Assembly (NCBI GenBank): GCA_949285935.1
Contig: CASEAH010000066.1
Span: 1 to 40,401 of the forward strand
Origin: an uncultured Oscillospiraceae bacterium
GTDB lineage: Bacteria > Bacillota > Clostridia > Oscillospirales > Ruminococcaceae
Direction of reading: 5' to 3'
Length of the DNA: 40,401 nucleotides
A program made the position numbers and the translations under genes. Below the pieces are notes generated by a model. That model was not told where the DNA came from and made no database searches. It was given only the letters and a program-made list of their open reading frames with translations. The number at the start of each line of letters is the position of its first letter. Position 1 is the stretch's first letter. Of the stretch, positions 3,618 through 12,966 are shown in pieces.

Positions 3618-3843
3618 TCCCTGTCTGATTTTCCTGAAAATACGGAAAAGAAGGGACAGGCCAGGAGACGGAGATCCCATCGGGACAGCAGTGCTTGGGA
3701 AGGATGCCGGAGCCCGGCAGGAGGAAGAAAATAAGGAGTAAGATCCGGCAGGCCATCCCGAAAACATTTTACAGGGGCAGGCTGGGTCCGTGCCGGGAGG
3801 CGGAGAAAGAGGGGCCGCCGCTCAGGAAACCGGAAAGCCGGAA

Positions 3844-4599: not shown

Positions 4600-4829
4600 G
4601 GAAGACACGCCCCTTTCCAATTGTGTTTTGCCTGGGGAAAACCGCCCGCAGGAAGCTGCTTCCCCGGAAAAGAACCGTTTTTATCATAGCATATCCACCC
4701 ACGGGATGCAAATTCCCGGCAGCTCTTCCAGAGCCCTTCCGCAGGCGTTTTTTCGTGAAAAAAGCACATACAACCGGGGACGGGGCCATATATTGGTACC
4801 AAGACCAAAATGTTGAGGGAGGGAACGAC

Positions 4830-4970
4830 TTGAAAGGTCTCCCAGAGGACAGAGCCAGCGCCTTTGCGCTGTATATCATCGAAACGGGCGCCACGGTACG
4901 GGAAACTGCCAAAAAATTTGACATTTCAAAATCAACGGTACATACAGCCGTCATGATCCGGAACGGTTGA
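4830..4970 (+). CDS. spoIIID: spoIIID 5' portion: SpoIIID N-terminal half, interrupted by an element
   Basis: In the unrearranged state this frame encodes 46 residues from a TTG start preceded by GGGAGGG (4817-4823, 6-nt spacing). Residues 1-37 match the SpoIIID N-terminus: an ALYIIETGATVRETAKKF stretch followed by the recognition-helix sequence DISKSTV. SpoIIID is the small helix-turn-helix protein that, with sigma-E, reprogrammes mother-cell transcription during sporulation. After codon 37 the frame enters foreign DNA and stops 9 codons later (HTAVMIRNG). The matching C-terminal half is at 12549-12692, and joining at TACATA gives STVH-KDITERLQ with no frame change. A weak sigma-E-like -10 (CATACAAC, 4767-4774) lies upstream; no convincing -35 is seen. 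The short form keeps most of the HTH but lacks the second half of the protein. Confidence 0.9.
   Translation: MKGLPEDRASAFALYIIETGATVRETAKKFDISKSTVHTAVMIRNG
4939..4968 (+). other. attL: core TACATA plus element-side arm
   Basis: The core TACATA (4939-4944) falls across codons 37-39 of the interrupted spoIIID frame. On the element side, after 15 nt, comes the 9-bp arm GGAACGGTT (4960-4968). The same arm occurs inverted at the same distance from the right core. Between core and arm the two sides also match at several positions (for example GAT just before the arm). This symmetry is typical of the attP half-sites bound by large serine recombinases. Confidence 0.85.
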
Positions 4971-5237
4971 ACGGAAAAATCCCTCCATCCCCGGCTTTGC
5001 CAAAGCAGCCTGCCCCAAATACAGACAGGCGTCCCCTGCCCCCAGCCATAAAGTCAAAAAATCCCGCAAAAAGACAATGGCAGGATTAGGACCGCCTTCC
5101 CTATGCAGGACAGGCTGGTTTCTGCCTTTCCCCCTCCGGAGGTTTGCCGCTTCCGCTGCGGAGAAGCGTATGTATAAATTACGTTGACAGGCAGACTCTG
5201 ACGGGCCGATTTTTTTTGCAGGCCGCAGCCGCCCGGC

Positions 5238-5450
5238 CTCCGGCACCGCAGGATAGGGACGATAGACTTGGAAAACAGTTCTGCGGCAAAGCATCCGGTC
5301 TCCGGTACCACAGGGTTGGGGCGGCAGACTTGGAAATCAACCCTGCGGCAAACTATCAGGACCTTGGTGCAGCAGGATTGGGGCGGCAGACCTGGAAAAC
5401 AGCCCTGCGGCAAAGCATCCGATCTCCGGCCCCGCAGGATTGGGGGCTGC
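5238..5450 (+). repeat. 62-bp tandem repeat tract, about 3.4 imperfect copies
   Basis: Units begin at 5238, 5300, 5362 and 5424 (partial), an exact 62-bp period. Shared blocks in each unit are GCAGG(A)TTGGGG, GCAGAC(C/T)TGGAAA and CCCTGCGGCAAA; the first unit is the most diverged. 62 is not a multiple of 3, so it is not a protein repeat read in one frame. It occupies the otherwise gene-free 572 bp (4971-5542) between attL and the LysR gene, and its function is unknown. It resembles intergenic repeat DNA rather than CRISPR, because there are no unique spacers between identical repeats. Confidence 0.85.
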
Positions 5451-5542
5451 CTGTTGGGGGCGGTCCGGCTTTTTTACAAAGCTTCAAGCTTTCCGGAATC
5501 TTTCTTTCCTTAAAAGCCACGGCATGAGGTGCGTGCGGTTCT

Positions 5543-6433
5543 TTATGCCGGAGGATCCAGGCATACTTCCTCCACAAACTGCCGGGCTGTCGGGGAAAGA
5601 CCGGGAGAAGCTCTCCAGACGGCGCATTCCAGCAGCCGGGGGGCCTGAAGGCAGAAGGGCTGTGTCAGTTCCTGCCTCTTAAGCTCCTCCTGTGAAAGAG
5701 GCGGGGCCCAGAGATAGCTGCCGGGAAGGCTGTGGAGCAGTTCCCACAGGTCTTCCGGACAAGCCATGCGGATCTGCCGTGCGGGCTCCCCCAGATCAGG
5801 GATGGCCCCGGCGAAAACCGCCTCACAGACCAGGCAGGTGCAGGACCGCAGCCTGTCGGGGGTGATGGATTCTTCCCCGGCCAGAGGGTGGCGGAGGGAT
5901 AGAACCGGCAGCAGGGGATATTCCCGGATCATCCGGGCAGCAAGGTTTTGCTGGGACGCAAGGCGCTCCACGGCAGAGGCATCCCCGGGGGTATACCGCA
6001 AGATCCCCAGATGTGCCTGCTCCGATGCCACAAGGCTTATGGACTCAGGCCAGCCGCATTCCCGGACCCGGATGTCCAGAGGAGCATCCGGGCTATACCG
6101 GGCAGCCAGCCGGGAGACAGCCGGGCCCAGACGGGCCCATGGGGGAGCGGCTACAAGCAGGGCGGCTCCTTCCGGGCCGTGGGAACGCCATGCAGACGCC
6201 AAAGCATCTGCCCGGCGGAGGATCTCCCTGGCAGCGGACAAAAACTTGATGCCGTCGGCAGTGGGGACGACCCCCTGAGGCGTGCGCAAAAAGAGTGTGA
6301 CCCCCAGTTCCTCCTCCAGTTCCCGGATACTTTTGCTCAGGTTTGGCTGACCCATATACAGGTTGCGGGCAGCTGCGGTAATGCTTCCTGCTTTTTCCAT
6401 TTCCACTGCGTAGCGCAGCTGAGAAAGTGTCAT
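5543..6433 (-). CDS. LysR-family transcriptional regulator
   Basis: A 296-aa LysR regulator of typical length. The N-terminal winged HTH is clear: MTLSQLRYAVEMEKAGSI, then AARNLYMGQPNLSKSIRELE with the usual S/P-x-LS-x-xI-xxLE pattern, and LGVTLFLRTPQGVVPTADG in the wing. Residues about 90-290 form the effector-binding domain, which is more diverged. It is transcribed away from the alcohol dehydrogenase at 6616, with 182 bp between them, the classic LysR arrangement in which the regulator controls the divergent gene and itself. A 14-bp palindrome lies in that gap. The effector is unknown. It is cargo of the spoIIID element. Confidence 0.92.
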   Translation of the reverse strand: MTLSQLRYAVEMEKAGSITAAARNLYMGQPNLSKSIRELEEELGVTLFLRTPQGVVPTADGIKFLSAAREILRRADALASAWRSHGPEGAALLVAAPPWARLGPAVSRLAARYSPDAPLDIRVRECGWPESISLVASEQAHLGILRYTPGDASAVERLASQQNLAARMIREYPLLPVLSLRHPLAGEESITPDRLRSCTCLVCEAVFAGAIPDLGEPARQIRMACPEDLWELLHSLPGSYLWAPPLSQEELKRQELTQPFCLQAPRLLECAVWRASPGLSPTARQFVEEVCLDPPA

Positions 6434-6529
6434 TGTGACGTCCTCCAGACATGAAAAAAAGTAATGGATTATATTTTTATTATATATTACCCGCCTCCAA
6501 AAATAAATGCTATTATGATGCTGTTCGTT

Positions 6530-6543
6530 GTTAATAAATTAAC
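6530..6543. promoter_or_regulatory. 14-bp palindrome in LysR/adh divergent promoter region
   Basis: GTTAAT-AA-ATTAAC is a perfect inverted repeat and contains the T-N11-A pattern of LysR sites. It lies 73 bp upstream of the alcohol dehydrogenase ATG in an AT-rich segment. Binding by the neighbouring LysR protein is inferred from position and symmetry only. Confidence 0.5.
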
Positions 6544-6615
6544 ATACTTGTGCCGCGCTCCGGATTTTCCCTGGGAAATACCCGGCACGGCCCTGCAACA
6601 TGGAGGTAATCAATC

Positions 6616-7824
6616 ATGCGGTTTACTCTTCCTCGCGATCTGTATCATGGCAAGGGCTCCCTGGACGAGCTGAAGAACCTGAAGGGCACCAAAGCGTTTG
6701 TGGTCACCGGCGGCGGCAGCATGAAGCGTTTTGGTTTCCTGGAGCGTGTGGAGAACGCTCTGAAGGAAGCCGGTATGGAAGTACAGCTGTTTGAGGGTGT
6801 AGAGCCCGATCCCAGTGTCACCACTGTGATGAAGGGCGCCGAAGCCATGCGTGCTTTTGAGCCCGACTGGATCGTCGCCATCGGCGGCGGAAGCCCCATC
6901 GACGCGGCCAAGGCCATGTGGGCTTTCTATGAGTATCCGCAGGTGACCTTTGAGGATCTGTGCATCCCCTTCAACTTCCCCACTCTCCGCCAGAAGGCCC
7001 GCTTCTGCGCCATTCCCTCCACCTCCGGCACCGCCACCGAGGTAACTGCCTTCTCCGTCATCACCGACTACGACAAGGGCATCAAATATCCTCTGGCCGA
7101 CTTTAACATCACCCCCGACGTGGCCATTGTGGATCCCGACCTGGCCGAAAAGATGCCTCCCAAGCTGACCGCTCATACCGGCATGGACGCCATGACCCAT
7201 GCGGTGGAGGCTTATGTGTCCACCGTACACTGCGATTACACCGATCCCCTGGCCCTCCACGCCATCAAGATGATCCATAACGATCTCAAGAAGTCCTACG
7301 GCGGCGATATGGAGGCCCGGGACCGGATGCACAACGCCCAGTGCCTGGCAGGCATGGCCTTCTCCAACGCCCTGCTGGGAATCGTCCACTCCATGGCCCA
7401 CAAGACCGGCGCCGTATTTGAGGGCGGCCACATCATCCACGGCGCTGCCAACGCCATGTATCTGCCCAAAGTCATCCAGTACAACGCCAAAAATCCTGAG
7501 GCTGCCGAGCGTTATGCCGACATCGCCCGCTTCATGGGCCTGGAAGGCTCCGATACGCCTTCTCTGGTCAAGGCTCTGGTGGCGGAGCTGCGCCGCATGA
7601 ACGACGAGCTGAACATTCCTCAGTGCATCCGCCACTACGGCGAGGGCGGCGTCATTGCCGAGACCGGCTTCGTGGGCGAGGAGGAGTTCCTCTCCAAGCT
7701 GCCCACCATTGCGGCCAACGCCATCGGCGACGCCTGCACCGGCTCCAATCCCCGTCAGCCCAGCCAGGAGGATATGGAGAAACTCCTGAAAGCGTGCTAT
7801 TACGACCTGGATGTTGACTTCTGA
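6616..7824 (+). CDS. iron-containing alcohol dehydrogenase
   Basis: A 402-aa Fe-ADH (group III) family protein. It interconverts an aldehyde or ketone and an alcohol with NAD(P)H in the cytosol. Visible motifs: VVTGGGSMKRFG and AIGGGSPIDAAKAMW (nucleotide binding), IPSTSGTATEVTAFSVI, and the metal-binding set Asp/His/His/His in THTGMDAMTHAVEAY-like text (here TAHTGMDAMTHAVEAY), IVHSMAHKTGA and GGHIIHGAANA. Start: GGAGG (6602-6606) is 9 nt before the ATG. Codon use is strongly biased (C/G-ending), suggesting high expression. A strong hairpin terminator follows at 7842-7876. The natural substrate cannot be read from sequence; butanol, ethanol, 1,3-propanediol and succinate-semialdehyde enzymes all share this fold. 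Together with NfnAB downstream it suggests control of cellular reductant. Confidence 0.93.
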   Translation: MRFTLPRDLYHGKGSLDELKNLKGTKAFVVTGGGSMKRFGFLERVENALKEAGMEVQLFEGVEPDPSVTTVMKGAEAMRAFEPDWIVAIGGGSPIDAAKAMWAFYEYPQVTFEDLCIPFNFPTLRQKARFCAIPSTSGTATEVTAFSVITDYDKGIKYPLADFNITPDVAIVDPDLAEKMPPKLTAHTGMDAMTHAVEAYVSTVHCDYTDPLALHAIKMIHNDLKKSYGGDMEARDRMHNAQCLAGMAFSNALLGIVHSMAHKTGAVFEGGHIIHGAANAMYLPKVIQYNAKNPEAAERYADIARFMGLEGSDTPSLVKALVAELRRMNDELNIPQCIRHYGEGGVIAETGFVGEEEFLSKLPTIAANAIGDACTGSNPRQPSQEDMEKLLKACYYDLDVDF

Positions 7825-7841
7825 TGCAATTTATTTAGAAT

Positions 7842-7876
7842 AAAATAGGGGGAGGGATATTCCCTCCCCCTATTTT
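7842..7876 (+). terminator. strong hairpin terminator between adh and nfnA
   Basis: Perfect 16-bp stem (AAAATAGGGGGAGGGA at 7842-7857 with its complement at 7861-7876) and a 3-nt loop, ending in TTTT. nfnA starts only 28 nt later with no visible promoter between, so nfnAB may depend on read-through, or the hairpin may adjust the adh:nfn ratio or protect the adh mRNA end. Confidence 0.85.
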
Positions 7877-7904
7877 GCGCCAGGTCCATGGGAAGGAGAA
7901 GATT

Positions 7905-8747
7905 ATGTTCAGAATTGCGGAAAAAACAGTGCTGAATCCTACAGTGACCAAGCTGGTGATTGAAGCGCCTTTGGTGGCCAGGAAAGCCCAGCCCGGCCAG
8001 TTCATTATTATACGGGCCATGGAGGATTCGGAGCGGATCCCCCTGACGGTAGCGGATTATGACCGGGAGGCCGGGACCGTTACCATTATTTTTCAGATCG
8101 TAGGCGGCGGCACCATGGAGCTCAACCGCCTGGAGGCGGGAGAAAGCGTCCATGACTTTGTGGGTCCCCTGGGCCGTCCCAGCCAGCTGGAAGGCCTGAA
8201 AAAAGTAGCCGTAGTGGGAGGCGGCGTGGGATGCGCCATTGCTTATCCCACCGCCAAGCGCCTTCATGAGCTGGGTGCGGAGGTACATAGCATCGTGGGC
8301 TTCCGCTCCAAGGATCTGGTGATCCTGGAGAAGGAGTTTGAGGCCGTCTCCGACCGGGTGGTCAAGATGAGCGACGACGGCAGCTGGGGTGAAAAGGGTC
8401 TGGTGACCAATGCCCTGGAGGCTCTGATCCGGGAAGGAAACCAGTATGACGAAGTGATCGCCATCGGCCCGCTGGTGATGATGAAATTTGTTGCCAAGCT
8501 GACCAAGGAGTATGGCATCAAGACTACGGTATCCATGAACCCCATCATGATCGACGGAACAGGGATGTGCGGCGGCTGCCGTCTGACAGTGGGCGGCGAG
8601 ACCAAGTTCGCCTGTGTGGACGGTCCTGATTTTGACGGCCATCAGGTGGACTTTGACGAGGCCATGCGCCGGGGCAGTATGTACCGGGAGTTTGAGACCC
8701 ATGCCCGGGAGGCGTCCTGCAACCTGTTCAAGAAGGAGGTGGAGTAA
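7905..8747 (+). CDS. nfnA: NfnA: ferredoxin:NADP+ oxidoreductase small subunit (sulfide dehydrogenase-type)
   Basis: A 280-aa flavoprotein of the dihydroorotate dehydrogenase electron-transfer / SudB family. FAD-binding region: IPLTVADYD near residues 45-53. NAD-binding region: VAVVGGGVGCAIAYP (about 103-117). The [2Fe-2S] ligands are visible near the C-terminus as an Asp and Cys cluster, IDGTGMCGGCR, followed by KFACVDGP. In NfnAB the small subunit handles NADH while the large subunit handles NADPH and ferredoxin, giving flavin-based bifurcation. ATG 7905 is chosen because GGAAGGAG (7891-7898) sits 7 nt upstream; the frame is open further 5'. nfnB follows after 3 nt. Carriage on an element in a sporulation gene is unusual. 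Confidence 0.92.
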   Translation: MFRIAEKTVLNPTVTKLVIEAPLVARKAQPGQFIIIRAMEDSERIPLTVADYDREAGTVTIIFQIVGGGTMELNRLEAGESVHDFVGPLGRPSQLEGLKKVAVVGGGVGCAIAYPTAKRLHELGAEVHSIVGFRSKDLVILEKEFEAVSDRVVKMSDDGSWGEKGLVTNALEALIREGNQYDEVIAIGPLVMMKFVAKLTKEYGIKTTVSMNPIMIDGTGMCGGCRLTVGGETKFACVDGPDFDGHQVDFDEAMRRGSMYREFETHAREASCNLFKKEVE

Positions 8748-8750
8748 GCC

Positions 8751-10151
8751 ATGGCAAAGCAGATCAACATGGATCCCCACAAGTGCCCCATGCCCAGCCA
8801 GGAGCCTCTGGTGCGCAACCACAACTTTGAGGAGGTGGCTCTGGGTTACACCCCGGAGATGGCGGTAAGCGAAGCCAGACGCTGCCTCAGCTGCCCCAAG
8901 AAGCCCTGCCAGAGCGGGTGCCCTGTGGGCATTGATATTCCCGGCTTTATCGCCAGGGTGGCCCAGGAGGATTTTGAGGGAGCCTACCAGATTTTGGCTG
9001 CCTCCAGCGCCCTGCCCGCCGTGTGCGGACGGGTCTGCCCTCAGGAGACCCAGTGCGAGGGAAAATGCGTCCGCGGGGTCAAGGGCGAAAGTGTGGGCAT
9101 CGGCCGTTTGGAGCGGTTTGTAGCCGACTGGCACCGGGAACATTCCCACGAGACTCCGGTTCGTCCTCAGCCCAACGGCCATAAAGTGGCCATCGTGGGC
9201 GCCGGGCCTTCCGGCCTCACCGCCGCGGGAGAGCTGGCCAAGCTGGGCTATGGTGTAACCATTTATGAGGCGCTGCATCTGGCCGGAGGCGTGCTGGTAT
9301 ACGGTATCCCCGAGTTCCGTCTGCCCAAGTCCATTGTGCAGCAGGAGATCGACGGCCTCAAGGCTATGGGTGTGGATATCGAGACCAACATGGTCATCGG
9401 CAAGGTGCTGACGGTGGATGAGCTGTTGGAAGAGGAAGGCTTTGAAGCGGTGTACATTGCCAGCGGCGCGGGCCTGCCCCGTTTTATGGGCATCCCCGGC
9501 GAGAGCCTCAAGGGCGTCTACTCCGCCAATGAGTATCTCACCCGCATCAACCTGATGAAGGCATACCGCCCCGACAGCAAGACGCCCATCCTCCACAGCC
9601 GCAAGGTGGCGGTGGTGGGCGGCGGCAACGTGGCCATGGATGCCGCCCGCTGCGCCAAGCGCCTGGGAGCCGAAGAGGTATATATCGTTTACCGGCGGGG
9701 TATGGAAGAGCTGCCCGCCCGGAAGGAAGAAGTGGAGCATGCCCAGGAAGAGGGCATCATCTTCAAAACCCTCACCAACCCCGTGGAGGTCCTGGGAGAC
9801 GAGGACGGACGGGTTCGGGGGATGGTCTGCGTGGAAATGGAGCTGGGAGAGCCGGATGACTCCGGCCGCCGCCGCCCGGTGGTGAAGCCCGGCAGCGAGT
9901 TCACTCTGGAGGTGGACACCATGATCATGTCCATCGGAACCAGCCCCAATCCGCTGATCCGCTCCACTACCCCGGGGCTGGATACCAACCGGCACGGCTG
10001 CATCATCACCAATGGTGAGGACGGCCTCACCAGCCGGGAGGGTGTGTATGCCGGGGGCGATGCCGTTACCGGCGCCGCTACCGTGATCCTGGCCATGGGC
10101 GCCGGCAAACAGGCGGCCGCGGCCATTGACCGCTACATCCGGAACAAATAA
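8751..10151 (+). CDS. nfnB: NfnB: NADPH-binding large subunit (glutamate synthase small-chain family, GltA-type)
   Basis: A 466-aa flavoprotein of the GltD/NfnB family. The N-terminus carries two [4Fe-4S] cysteine sets: RRCLSCPKKPCQSGCPVGID (about residues 43-62) and AVCGRVCPQETQCEGKCV (about 92-109). Then come an FAD dinucleotide fold (VAIVGAGPSGLTAAGELA) and an NADPH-binding fold (VAVVGGGNVAMDAARCAKRL), and finally a C-terminal FAD motif (GVYAGGDAVTGAATVI). The glutamate synthase large subunit is absent, and the partner 3 nt upstream is NfnA, so NADH-dependent ferredoxin:NADP+ oxidoreductase is much likelier than glutamate synthase. The original automatic name for such genes is often 'gltA/gltD'. 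A terminator follows at 10190-10238. Confidence 0.92.
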   Translation: MAKQINMDPHKCPMPSQEPLVRNHNFEEVALGYTPEMAVSEARRCLSCPKKPCQSGCPVGIDIPGFIARVAQEDFEGAYQILAASSALPAVCGRVCPQETQCEGKCVRGVKGESVGIGRLERFVADWHREHSHETPVRPQPNGHKVAIVGAGPSGLTAAGELAKLGYGVTIYEALHLAGGVLVYGIPEFRLPKSIVQQEIDGLKAMGVDIETNMVIGKVLTVDELLEEEGFEAVYIASGAGLPRFMGIPGESLKGVYSANEYLTRINLMKAYRPDSKTPILHSRKVAVVGGGNVAMDAARCAKRLGAEEVYIVYRRGMEELPARKEEVEHAQEEGIIFKTLTNPVEVLGDEDGRVRGMVCVEMELGEPDDSGRRRPVVKPGSEFTLEVDTMIMSIGTSPNPLIRSTTPGLDTNRHGCIITNGEDGLTSREGVYAGGDAVTGAATVILAMGAGKQAAAAIDRYIRNK

Positions 10152-10189
10152 GAAAGGGACCTTCTCTCCGCGGGAGGGCCCTCACATCA

Positions 10190-10238
10190 GGAGCATTTTG
10201 CCGTTCTTGCGCAAAGGATGGCAGAATGCTCCTTTTTT
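10190..10238 (+). terminator. terminator after nfnB
   Basis: 13-bp stem GGAGCATTTTGCC (10190-10202) with GGCAGAATGCTCC (10220-10232), one G-T pair, followed by six T. The right arm is the start of the 176-bp repeated segment, so a copy of the right arm plus T-run (10396-10414) recurs without a left arm. Confidence 0.85.
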
Positions 10239-10566
10239 AGTACCGGGCTGAGCCGGCAGAACTGCCCGCATAGGGGGCGGGGAATCCGCTGCTCCCAATC
10301 TCAGGCCGGCAGCAAAGCAGGCCAGGCCCGTGTCCCAATGACAGAGAGCCGGGACAGAAACGGTACTGCCGAGGGGGGGCTTACACAAAAAAGAGGGCAG
10401 AATGCTCCTTTTTTGGTACCGGACCGGGCTGGCAGAACTACCCGCATGGGGGGTGGAAAATCCGCTGCTCCCAATCTCAGGCCGGCGGCAAAGCAGGCCA
10501 GGCCTGTGTCCCAATGACAGAGGGACGGGACAGAAACGGTACTACCGGCGGGGGCTTGTGCATAAA
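10221..10566 (+). repeat. 176-bp tandem duplication (two copies)
   Basis: The segment starting GCAGAATGCTCCTTTTTT at 10221 recurs at 10397, a period of 176 bp. Long near-identical blocks include CCGCTGCTCCCAATCTCAGG, GCAAAGCAGGCCAGGCC, GTGTCCCAATGACAGAG and GGGACAGAAACGGTACT. There is no coding frame with homology. It fills most of the 445-bp gene-free gap between nfnB and the small gene at 10597. The copies are diverged by point changes, so the duplication is not brand new. Confidence 0.88.
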
Positions 10567-10596
10567 ATAAGAATGTGAAAAAAGGGGGCGGCAGGT

Positions 10597-10770
10597 GTGA
10601 AGGAGAGAAAAAGGAACTATCGTTTTCATGATCCCAATCCGCCGCAAGCCGCTGCCGCGGTCCTTTTGAAGATCCTTATGGAAGCCGGCGCCGCCCGGGT
10701 GGAGCGGGTGTTGGCGGGAGAGGAAGAGCTGCCGGAGAAAGGGCCGGAAAAAACGAAAAAAGCCGGCTGA
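10597..10770 (+). CDS. 57-aa small protein upstream of the serine recombinase
   Basis: GTG start with GGGGG (10584-10588) about 8 nt upstream; the frame runs to TGA at 10768. The N-terminus KERKRNYRFHDPNPP and the amphipathic helix AAAVLLKILMEAGAARVERV look like a small conserved family I have seen beside recombinases in Clostridia, but I cannot name a function. The C-terminus is a Glu/Lys/Pro-rich tail. It has its own terminator at 10778-10810, 248 bp before the recombinase. Size and location would suit a recombination directionality factor (the SPbeta RDF SprB is similarly small), which is a hypothesis only. Confidence 0.7.
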   Translation: MKERKRNYRFHDPNPPQAAAAVLLKILMEAGAARVERVLAGEEELPEKGPEKTKKAG

Positions 10771-10777
10771 GGGCAAA

Positions 10778-10810
10778 GGGCTTCGTCTGCGGGCGAGGCC
10801 CGGTTTTTTT
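10778..10810 (+). terminator. terminator after the 57-aa gene
   Basis: Stem GGGCTTCGTC (10778-10787) with GGCGAGGCCC (10792-10801), two G-T pairs, followed by GG and seven T. It separates the small gene from the recombinase. The next 208 bp contain a long-range inverted repeat (CAGGAAGTG 10882-10890 and CACTTCCTG 10956-10964). Confidence 0.8.
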
Positions 10811-11018
10811 AGCTCCGGGACCATTATGATGGAAAATTTATCAGGGCCTTTCTGAAAACAAAGAAGTGCACAGATTCTTCGCAGGAAGTGCGGGCTGCAA
10901 GGCAAAAGCGCAGGAATCCTTTGCGGATTCTCAGCATTTTTAACGCGGCAGACGCCACTTCCTGTAAAAAAATAAAAATTTCCACTTTTCAGAAAACCCC
11001 TAAAAGGAAGGATGCGTT

Positions 11019-12515
11019 ATGAGGATTGCCGCTTATTGTCGTGTGTCCACCGATCAGGAGGACCAGCTGAACAGCCTGGAAGCGCAGAAAAGGTTTTTTG
11101 CCCAGTATACCGGCCGTACCGGTGACACCCTGGTACGGCTGTACGCCGACGAAGGGCTTTCCGGCACCCGGGTGAAAAACCGAAAGGAATTCCTCCGCAT
11201 GATGGCCGACGCGGAACGGGGGCTGTTTGACCTGGTGGTGGTCAAGGATATTTCCCGTTTTGCCCGCAACACGGTGGATTTGCTTCAAAATATCCGCAGG
11301 CTGAGGGCCCTGGGGATTGAGACACAGTTTCTCACCGCCAACATGACCAGCATGGGCAACAGCGAATTCGTTCTCACCATTTTTGGCGCTCTTGCTCAGG
11401 AAGAGAGTGCCAACACCTCCAAACGGGTGAAGTTTGGGAAAAAAATAAACGCCCAAAAGGGGCGGGTCCCCAACCTGGTGTATGGGTACGACAAGACGGC
11501 GGGAGATTATTTTGATCTTGCGGTAAACCAGAAGGAAGCGGAGGTGGTGCGCCGGATTTATGGATGGTATGTGAAGGACGGGTACGGAACAGCCAAGATT
11601 TCCGGCTTCCTGAACCAGCAGGGGCTGCGGACCAAGCGGGGCTGCCGGTGGAGCCAGAACGCTGTCTGCCGCATCCTTACCAACCAGCTCTATACCGGCA
11701 GGATCATCAACGGCAGGCAGGAGATCGCCGATTTCCTTACCGGGCGGCGGGAGGAGAAGGACCCGTCGGAGTGGATGGTAGCGGACAGGCCCCATCTGAG
11801 GATCATCGACCCGGAAATTTTTGCCCGGGCGGAAGAGATCATGCGGTCCCGGGGCAAGGCCTTCCGCACCCGGGGGGAGCGGCAAAGCAACCGGCATCTC
11901 TTTTCCACCCTGCTCCGGTGCGGAGAGTGCGGCAGCAGCTTCCGGCGGACGGTACGCACCTATCGGAATACATATGTACGCTGGGTATGCTCGGGGCATA
12001 ACGGAAAAGGAGCCGCCAGCTGCCCCAATGCCGCGGCTGTGGACGAAGGGGAGCTGGCGGCGGTTTTACAGGAATACTTTGCAGGACTGCTCCGGATGCA
12101 GAAAAAGACGTTTGGCCAGGCAGCGGAAGAACTGGGCCGGATGTGCAGGGCACGGGAAACAGATTCCGGAGAAGAGCGTGAGGCGGCAGCCCGGTTGGTG
12201 CGTCTGCAAAAAAGCCGGCAGAAATATCTGGATCTGTATGCCGACGACCTGATCTCCCGCCGGGAACTGAACGAAAAAATAAACGGGATGCGGGAAGAGA
12301 TGGAGCGGCTGGAAAAGGAGCAAAGCCGGTTTTGCCGCCGCCAGGATGGGAAAAAGCAGCTGGAAAGCGTTTTGAATCAGCTTTTCGCAGGCTGGGAGGA
12401 CATGGCCGATGTCCGGCAGATGACCAACGCCCAGCTCAGGCAGATCATCCGCAAAATCGAGGTGGACAAGGAAGGCAATGTGGATATTTATCTGTGCCGG
12501 CTGGAAGCCCCCTGA
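11019..12515 (+). CDS. large serine recombinase, probable excisionase of the spoIIID element
   Basis: A 498-aa large serine recombinase, the same class and about the same size as SpoIVCA of the B. subtilis skin element. The catalytic resolvase domain (about residues 1-145) contains YCRVSTDQ with the nucleophile Ser10 and VVKDISRFARN with Arg80 and Arg83. The recombinase domain follows (VYGYDKTAG, FLNQQGLRTKRG, ILTNQLYTGRIINGRQ). A zinc ribbon is visible (LLRCGECGSSF ... WVCSGHNGKGAASCPN), then a coiled coil (about 370-450). The ATG has AAAGGAAGG upstream. The gene ends 7 nt before the right attachment arm and is in the same frame as the spoIIID 3' half, separated by one TGA. Its transcript would run into spoIIID's 3' end and terminator. 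Confidence 0.95.
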   Translation: MRIAAYCRVSTDQEDQLNSLEAQKRFFAQYTGRTGDTLVRLYADEGLSGTRVKNRKEFLRMMADAERGLFDLVVVKDISRFARNTVDLLQNIRRLRALGIETQFLTANMTSMGNSEFVLTIFGALAQEESANTSKRVKFGKKINAQKGRVPNLVYGYDKTAGDYFDLAVNQKEAEVVRRIYGWYVKDGYGTAKISGFLNQQGLRTKRGCRWSQNAVCRILTNQLYTGRIINGRQEIADFLTGRREEKDPSEWMVADRPHLRIIDPEIFARAEEIMRSRGKAFRTRGERQSNRHLFSTLLRCGECGSSFRRTVRTYRNTYVRWVCSGHNGKGAASCPNAAAVDEGELAAVLQEYFAGLLRMQKKTFGQAAEELGRMCRARETDSGEEREAAARLVRLQKSRQKYLDLYADDLISRRELNEKINGMREEMERLEKEQSRFCRRQDGKKQLESVLNQLFAGWEDMADVRQMTNAQLRQIIRKIEVDKEGNVDIYLCRLEAP

Positions 12516-12522
12516 AAAGGAA

Positions 12523-12552
12523 AACCGTTCCAAATCGTCACCACAATACATA
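12523..12552 (+). other. attR: element-side arm plus core TACATA
   Basis: Arm AACCGTTCC (12523-12531), 15 nt, then core TACATA (12547-12552). It is the mirror image of the left site (arm at 4960-4968, same 15-nt distance), so the excised circle would carry a symmetric attP. The core overlaps the first restored codons of the spoIIID 3' half. Confidence 0.85.
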
Positions 12553-12692
12553 AAGATATTACGGAACGGCTGCAAAAAACGGATTATCCTCTTTACCTGA
12601 AGGTAAAAGAGGTGCTGGAAAAAAACAAGCAGGAGCGGCACATACGGGGCGGTATGGCCACAAAAAGAAAGTATGCCAAAGAAGAACCATGA
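12549..12692 (+). CDS. spoIIID: spoIIID 3' portion: SpoIIID C-terminal half
   Basis: Encodes 47 residues, HKDITERLQK ... VKEVLEKNKQERHIRGGMAT ... AKEEP, then TGA. These match the C-terminal half of SpoIIID, including the diagnostic ERHIRGG(x)AT(K)xKY block. It has no start codon or ribosome site of its own; the open frame continues 5' only to the recombinase stop codon. It becomes translatable as SpoIIID only after joining to the 5' part at 4830-4944. Both halves are intact and in frame across the core, which argues for a functional split gene rather than decay. Rebuilt length is 84 aa, near the usual 80-95. Confidence 0.92.
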   Translation, partial: HKDITERLQKTDYPLYLKVKEVLEKNKQERHIRGGMATKRKYAKEEP

Positions 12693-12695
12693 CAG

Positions 12696-12734
12696 GCAGG
12701 GAGCGTAAGCCGCAGGGCCCGCTCCCTGCTTTTT
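12696..12734 (+). terminator. spoIIID terminator
   Basis: GCAGGGAGCG (12696-12705) pairs with CGCTCCCTGC (12720-12729), followed by five T. It lies 3 nt after the spoIIID stop and also ends the recombinase transcript in the unexcised state. Confidence 0.88.
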
Positions 12735-12966
12735 CACAAAAAATTCATTACAACAAGCAAATATTCGGAGTTAGTGGAGCCTTTTTATAAAAAATATTGT
12801 AAGGAATAAACCAATTTTATTTTAAATGCTGGATTTAAAAGAGGTTTTTTGGACGAAATATGAATTGAAAGTTATATTTGATATTGGTATAATTATAGAA
12901 CCGACTGTACAGACCTTGGTTGTTCTGAGTAGCTGCATGAACATTTTGTGTAGGGAGGTTTTTCAC

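Follow-up and report, generated by a model that had tools for sequence, protein, structure and literature searches.

The window analysed here is a stretch of 40,401 bp that makes up one entire contig (CASEAH010000066.1) in the genome assembly of an uncultured Oscillospiraceae bacterium (GCA_949285935.1; 2.44 Mb, 110 contigs, 89% complete). It contains the mother-cell sporulation gene spoIIID in two in-frame halves separated by 7,608 bp (core to core), and an intact copy was not found in this incomplete genome. In brief, the 5' half (4830..4942, + strand) runs from a TTG start to the core CA of a His codon, and the 3' half (12549..12692, + strand) runs from the core CA to the stop codon TGA at 12690-12692. 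Translations of 4830-4943 and 12546-12689 match positions 5-37 (E-value 2.7e-11) and 36-81 (E-value 4.9e-19), respectively, of the Pfam profile SpoIIID (PF12116, 82 positions). The interrupted codon is the His of SKSTVHKD, a point within the presumed DNA-recognition helix. The direct repeat TACATA is common to both halves (4939-4944 and 12547-12552), and each time includes the core CA (4941-4942 and 12549-12550). In-frame union gives a protein of 84 amino acids (aa) reading ...KKFDISKSTVHKDITERLQKTDYPLYLKVKEVLEKNKQERHIRGGMATKRKYAKEEP; left unjoined, the 5' half would terminate ...STVHTAVMIRNG at a stop codon. Upstream of the core of the 3' half, back to the nearest stop (12513-12515), the frame offers no ATG, GTG or TTG.

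A sigma-E-type promoter motif, read in the sequence, precedes spoIIID (4768..4794, + strand; ATA at 4768-4770, N16, CATATATT at 4787-4794), and the gene is followed by a terminator-like hairpin (12712-12729) with a T run (12712..12737, + strand). When the joined protein was used to search the genome at E<=10, only the two halves were found. With the assembly 89% complete, an additional copy might have been missed, although this is unlikely. The original prediction, made from the letters of the window alone, had described two intact halves uniting in frame at TACATA to 84 aa, a 7.6-kb interruption, a terminator behind the 3' half and a large serine recombinase within the element; all of this was borne out, and the second complete spoIIID that would have spoken against the prediction was not found in the genome.

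The recombinase (498 aa; 11019..12515, + strand) contains the three domains Resolvase PF00239, Recombinase PF07508 and Zn-ribbon PF13408 and falls within the family alignment; the profile of its family finds 9dxh and 9dxd, structures of the SP-beta integrase, with an E-value of about 2e-20. A small open reading frame (ORF) at 10597..10770 (+ strand) encodes a 57-aa protein with the motif RFHxPNP, a candidate recombination directionality factor with homologues upstream of related recombinases. The attachment (att) sites, to which no strand is assigned, were delimited from the sequence and from alignments of left and right ends: attL (4918..4968) has the core CA at 4941-4942 and the element arm GGAACGGTT at 4960-4968, and attR (12523..12573) has the element arm AACCGTTCC at 12523-12531 and the core CA at 12549-12550. 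Both ends of the element in the window carry the short common core and the att arms. The element is inserted in spoIIID, and hence is not the skin element proper, which intervenes in sigK.

Among ten genomes of the genus, spoIIID is whole in four (G002, G004, G006 and G009; 72-74% identity), present as both halves apart in two (G000, and G001 with 10.4 kb between them on one contig), seen as one half in three and not found in one. Uninterrupted versions with the same core exist within the genus. In a sample of the family, 333 of 396 genomes gave a spoIIID match; 49 genomes with weak or multiple matches were chosen by eye, so that the split counts are lower bounds, and at least 16 of these carry the two halves apart without an intact copy and at least 8 have one half. 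Family and genus together include at least 18 genomes, in 13 genera, with both halves apart, and at least 11 with one half. Where the halves share a contig they are 5.4 kb (G261) to 125 kb (G326) apart. The same architecture is found in independent genomes, including G001 (six contigs) and a 6.3-Mb contig of Schaedlerella arabinosiphila DSM 106076. With four congeners whole and the split recurring in other genomes, the split is more than chance. All 27 joined half-pairs (27/27) are open and in frame with SKSTVHKD, L168 running past its contig, and the stops or frameshifts that would have spoken against the original prediction were not found in them. As the same arrangement occurs in many relatives, the cells probably restore spoIIID by DNA excision during sporulation.

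Some genomes (G149, G218, G011, G172, G333 and G334; loci L092, L093, L126, L127, L128 and L121/L122) carry a relic spoIIID 5' half upstream of, or on a separate contig from, a full copy. These look as if spoIIID had been restored next to an old insertion. Locus L114 (G150) has an uninterrupted spoIIID with an apparent one-base frameshift just ahead of the core.

An alignment of 19 family members served to scan genomes, one per species, for relatives of the recombinase, and the best 80 of 582 loci were kept. In 47 of these 80 public loci the recombinase lies <=260 bp before a spoIIID 3' half, which starts 38-215 bp past the recombinase; in a further four the 3' half is 1.1-2.9 kb away. The query was taken from split loci, so a shared target is expected in close relatives, and the surprise lies in the taxonomic reach. 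The recombinase adjoins spoIIID in Blautia glucerasea, Schaedlerella arabinosiphila, Pseudoflavonifractor phocaeensis, Clostridium metagenome-assembled genomes (MAGs) and a Selenomonadales MAG, and in a Pelosinus MAG the 3' half is 1.1 kb from the recombinase. On a quick tree of 89 recombinases, which omits four partial ones, adjacency to spoIIID is clustered (9 changes vs a shuffled mean of 22). Host families are intermixed on this tree, as is expected because the elements are mobile. A plasmid search gave a best identity of 34% among the matches listed, with all 1719 records below 60%. The relatives found in phage records (best 52-57%) were rejected as phage-borne, since they turned out to be a likely chromosomal fragment. 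The record MT838016.1 (L225), labelled Bacteriophage sp., is likely such a fragment; it encodes this type of recombinase and has a spoIIID 3' half at 3632-3760.

The consensus of the right ends is AcCGTTCtaattngtnACaaCcgtA followed by CA, and that of the left ends is CA followed by TAtgGatGTnAcAAAataGAAcggtt. United, they form a near-palindrome of ~50 bp centred on CA. The attP sites of phage serine recombinases have been described as symmetric (PMC5595907). With up to one mismatch, CCGTTC is found at the predicted distance in 59 of 78 right ends vs 0 of 13 control rows and GAACGG in 26 of 39 left ends vs 0 of 15, counts that leave out loci with intact or contig-edge spoIIID (17 of 95 right and 20 of 59 left rows, relic rows there included); the control rows were drawn from these left-out loci; relic halves rather than intact genes make up 1 of the 13 right controls and 4 of the 15 left ones. 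The dinucleotide CA is common to both halves in 27 of 27 genomes or loci with both ends. Because the shared stretch always includes CA, and in two pairs is exactly CA with nothing beyond it, CA is likely the crossover dinucleotide.

Directly past the recombinase of L226 (IMG/VR 3300028833_003189) we found ACCGTTCTATTATCTAACGACCGTG-CA-TACAGTAGTAATAATTTAGAACGGTT, the predicted attP form, intact. This 62-kb contig encodes a phage DNA polymerase, a ligase and tail-like genes, and its recombinase is the one close relative (61%) among 80 loci kept from the viral-contig scan. A relaxed attP pattern of 21 bases, run on viral contigs and order genomes and designed after sight of L226, matches only the L226 contig within the viral-contig collection. 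In three genomes, contigs break at the att core or close to it. In G107 (L131/L095) two contigs overlap by exactly 127 bp from two bases before the core CA, and in G069 (L048/L129) two contigs overlap by exactly 127 bp from four bases past it; neither genome yielded a contig with the element side. In G367 (L130/L096) an empty site lies on one contig and the recombinase with the 3' half on another, with three substitutions near the core. These cases suggest that empty and occupied sites coexist in the samples, via excision or strain mixture.

In many loci, e.g. L039:3972-5504, the stop of the recombinase gene (ACATAA) is built from the att core and host spoIIID sequence, and the C-terminus of the recombinase would consequently change upon excision. 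The att half-site GTnAcAAA (window 4941-4968 and other left ends) also appears to resemble the SpoIIID box KRTAACARK of Clostridioides difficile (PMC5025042).

Homologues of the small ORF with an RFHxPN-like motif lie upstream of related recombinases, on the same strand, at 47 of 88 recombinase loci (E<0.01; 11 of the 47 belonged to the search profile itself), in 31 of the 47 at <=500 bp. Many more distant recombinases (<50% identity) have no such match, and at some of the loci without one the recombinase is <100 bp from a contig end. The 57-aa protein gave no Pfam or NCBIfam match. From its position and size it is likely a recombination directionality factor.

The best sigma-E-type promoter motif of the small ORF (10540..10568, + strand) reads TACTACC, N14, CATAAAAT and is found 36 nt before the start, with TA at 10543-10544 and CATA at 10561-10564. 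For a weighted motif built on the sigma-E consensus, the mean best score exceeded that of shuffles before the small ORF (13.2 vs 11.8) and before spoIIID (13.5 vs 11.7); the values were 12.2 vs 12.0 for the recombinase and 11.5 vs 11.3 for random places. The exact form TA-N16-CATA, in which TA in place of ATA at -35 was picked after the weighted-motif result, occurs <=100 bp before the small ORF in 33 of 47 loci (shuffles expect 1.8) and before spoIIID 5' ends in 21 of 57 (expected 1.7). It is not enriched before the recombinase (1 of 78 vs 2.7 expected). Other spacings above expectation are 15 (8/57) and 17 (9/57) for spoIIID, and 19 (14/47) for the small ORF, the last due to GTACTA, which has another TA three bases further upstream. 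This analysis draws its strength from the sharp spacing peak and from the recombinase, which serves as internal control; from it we infer that sigma-E drives the small ORF. The pattern agrees with that of C. difficile, in which sigma-A drives the recombinase gene CD1231 while CD1234 is controlled by sigma-E and SpoIIID (PMC5025042), save that SpoIIID cannot be needed here. By eye, window positions 10240-10550, ahead of the small ORF, contain two diverged direct copies of ~170 bp each, and the CATA motif is present only in the second.

We consider it likely that the 7.6-kb segment is an integrated mobile element that is excised in the sporulating mother cell under sigma-E, rebuilding spoIIID. 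The element lineage would insert at one spoIIID site, bases one and two of the His codon in STVHKD, by means of the large serine recombinase acting upon a palindromic attP. In growing cells spoIIID would be broken and the element inherited. Sigma-E of the mother cell would then induce the small protein, which as a directionality factor would turn the recombinase to attL x attR excision and restore the reading frame of spoIIID behind its own sigma-E promoter. SpoIIID would be made and the later mother-cell programme would follow; the forespore would retain the element, and the mother cell would die. The sequences themselves show the split, for which no second copy was found, the layout of the att sites, the target preference of the recombinase's relatives, the conserved small ORF with its promoter-like motif and the recurrence among relatives. 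That the small ORF is the directionality factor, that sigma-E drives it and that excision takes place, confined to the mother cell, is inferred. The observation behind the original prediction is confirmed, and its interpretation as a developmental rearrangement appears well supported.

Several known systems resemble the proposed one. The sigK skin element of C. difficile (recombinase CD1231, directionality factor CD1234; PMC5025042) also has a large serine recombinase that is not sporulation-specific. There, a small directionality factor under sigma-E brings about excision that rebuilds the gene of a mother-cell regulator, as proposed here. It differs in that the target is sigK and that CD1234 needs SpoIIID as well, whereas here SpoIIID itself is split and the trigger of excision cannot depend on it. 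The element gin of Bacillus cereus ATCC10987 is likewise not a prophage and splits a very small regulator gene, gerE, which is rejoined by GirC with GirX in sporulation; in contrast, it is 28.6 kb long, has three recombinase genes, a 9-bp end consensus, another target and a Bacillus host (PMC5595907). The SP-beta prophage in spsM of Bacillus subtilis has the same order of attL, directionality factor gene, integrase gene and attR, and its directionality factor is under mother-cell control, as we propose here; it differs in being an active prophage in a spore-surface gene, with a factor that is stress-induced as well (PMC6957869). Other element-split genes are sigK of B. subtilis, spoVFB, spoVR, kamA and yabG, whose elements have their own recombination unit and which are rejoined in development (PMC6957869, PMC10747680). 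In the passages considered from these papers, the targets named for such elements are sigK, spsM, spoVFB, spoVR, gerE, yabG and kamA, and spoIIID is not among them. To the original prediction, too, spoIIID was not known as such a target, and among the matches listed in the open-access literature, judged by title and the beginning of the abstract, we found no report of spoIIID split by an element. The gene is also not in the main text of a study covering thousands of serine recombinases (PMC10083194). We regard spoIIID as a new, widespread target of a known, skin-type kind of rearrangement.

Some elements carry core genes. In G074 the element (L077:4127-10685) encodes the F-type ATP synthase subunits c, alpha, gamma, beta and epsilon over NCBIfam cut-offs, with a and b below. 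The element of G224 (L078:4012-10335) contains an F-type gamma gene, and an ORF at the equivalent place matches subunit a below the cut-off. In both genomes (98% and 94% complete, respectively) the element-borne gamma gene is the sole one found in a search covering F-type ATP synthase. If these are the sole copies, germ-line excision would remove the ATP synthase, which fits an excision restricted to the dying mother cell; a single gamma gene inside the element argues against germ-line loss of the element. On balance, and with less confidence than for the element of the window, we favour the idea of a family of recombination units, widespread in Clostridia and reaching the Negativicutes, that is dedicated to spoIIID and acts as a developmental switch one step above sigK. 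Sigma-E would trigger an excision that is a prerequisite for any SpoIIID, and some elements would have acquired core genes, a single-copy F-type ATP synthase operon among them, so that the mother cell would irreversibly delete its ATP synthase genes and the spore would keep them.

A number of results weigh against excision in the mother cell. No excised junction or circle was seen for the window genome. The attP patterns matched in 0 of 396 family genomes and 0 of 394 order genomes, and the first pattern had no match in viral contigs. No spoIIID 3' half was found at 29 of the 80 public recombinase loci; twelve of these are at 31-35% identity and L193 and L198 are truncated at the end of a contig, but L137, L148 and L172 lack it despite 62-70% identity and no contig-end cut. 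The small ORF is 0.8-5.8 kb upstream of the recombinase, not beside it, in 16 of 47 loci, and its predicted structure, a single helix with a predicted local distance difference test score (pLDDT) of 72, is uninformative on function. The exact TA-N16-CATA motif is missing upstream of the small ORF in 14 of 47 loci (L135 and L139 were counted as lacking it with a wrongly taken start), and the motif counts are non-independent and inflated by related sequences. The median ratio of nonsynonymous to synonymous differences (pN/pS), 0.41 for joined split copies (351 pairs) and 0.40 for intact copies (21 pairs), counts in favour of excision, but only weakly, with synonymous sites near saturation and split ages not fixed; two ratios >1 among the 25 pairs listed come from row L090, mis-framed because its 5' half begins at a contig edge.

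Mother-cell excision has to be weighed against an ordinary integrative element or phage that uses spoIIID as attB without a developmental programme, so that integrated strains would sporulate only after chance exit of the element. The phage contig with this recombinase type and an attP fits such an element, as do the Mob_Pre relaxase and restriction-modification genes (NotI-like endonuclease, cytosine methylase) among the cargo of the G001 element, the patchy occupancy inside the genus, and the exact 127-bp contig overlaps at or near the site in G107 and G069, which suggest mixed forms. However, a sigma-E-type motif stands before the candidate directionality factor and not before the recombinase, the halves are conserved like intact genes (a weak point, as said), and in two genomes the element contains the sole ATP synthase gamma gene found. 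We consider the ordinary element unlikely. Sporulation has been lost in many gut Clostridia, and spoIIID could be a dead gene in a lineage that abandoned it; yet all 27 joined pairs keep an open reading frame, and in the window the recombinase, the arms and the small ORF are intact, all of which speaks against decay. The window genome has SpoIVA over the cut-off and open sporulation-type sigma genes. The sigK model gave six matches there, the best (C93) at 289 bits, under the cut-off of 298.65, and open over profile positions 8-225; the best match is under the cut-off in all ten genus genomes, and as the model also matches non-sporulating control genomes, the sigma gene names are tentative, resting on score and position. 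We reject the dead gene as very improbable.

The halves might also work without joining of the DNA, as two peptides or via joining of the RNA. We found no support for this: the only Rfam matches at gathering scores within the window are two tRNAs, the cut falls inside what is presumably the DNA-recognition helix, the 3' half has no in-frame start codon ahead of its core, and a recombinase with matching att sites is present. We give this next to no credence. An assembly artefact might be suspected in an assembly of 110 contigs, but it is strongly opposed by the independent genomes, G001 and S. arabinosiphila DSM 106076 among them, and we reject it as exceedingly improbable.

SpoIIID of C. difficile influences both the transcription of sigK and the excision of its intervening element (PMC5025042). 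Gating of SpoIIID by excision, if true, would be a rearrangement checkpoint earlier in the cascade of mother-cell regulators than sigK and gerE, the regulator genes found listed as split, located in commensals with poorly understood sporulation. A split gene could account for missing or truncated spoIIID annotations. The set of recombinase, factor and att sites is ready for testing, and split and unsplit congeners offer a clean comparison.

The remaining genes of the element in the window are cargo. In brief, they encode a LysR-family regulator (5543..6433, - strand; PF00126, PF03466), an iron-containing alcohol dehydrogenase (6616..7824, + strand; PF00465, PF25137), a sulfide/dihydroorotate dehydrogenase-like FAD/NAD subunit (NfnB-like; 7875..8747, + strand; NF004862 over cut-off) and an NADPH-dependent glutamate synthase-like subunit (NfnA-like; 8751..10151, + strand; TIGR01316 over cut-off). 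The label Nfn for the latter pair is tentative.

In a sister clade of the recombinase, a 3' fragment of another conserved, Cys-rich protein adjoins the recombinase in 7 of 10 loci, lying directly past it in L186, L187, L189, L190, L192, L194 and L197. Pfam and NCBIfam gave no family for five of these seven fragments. This Cys-rich protein is possibly a second split target.

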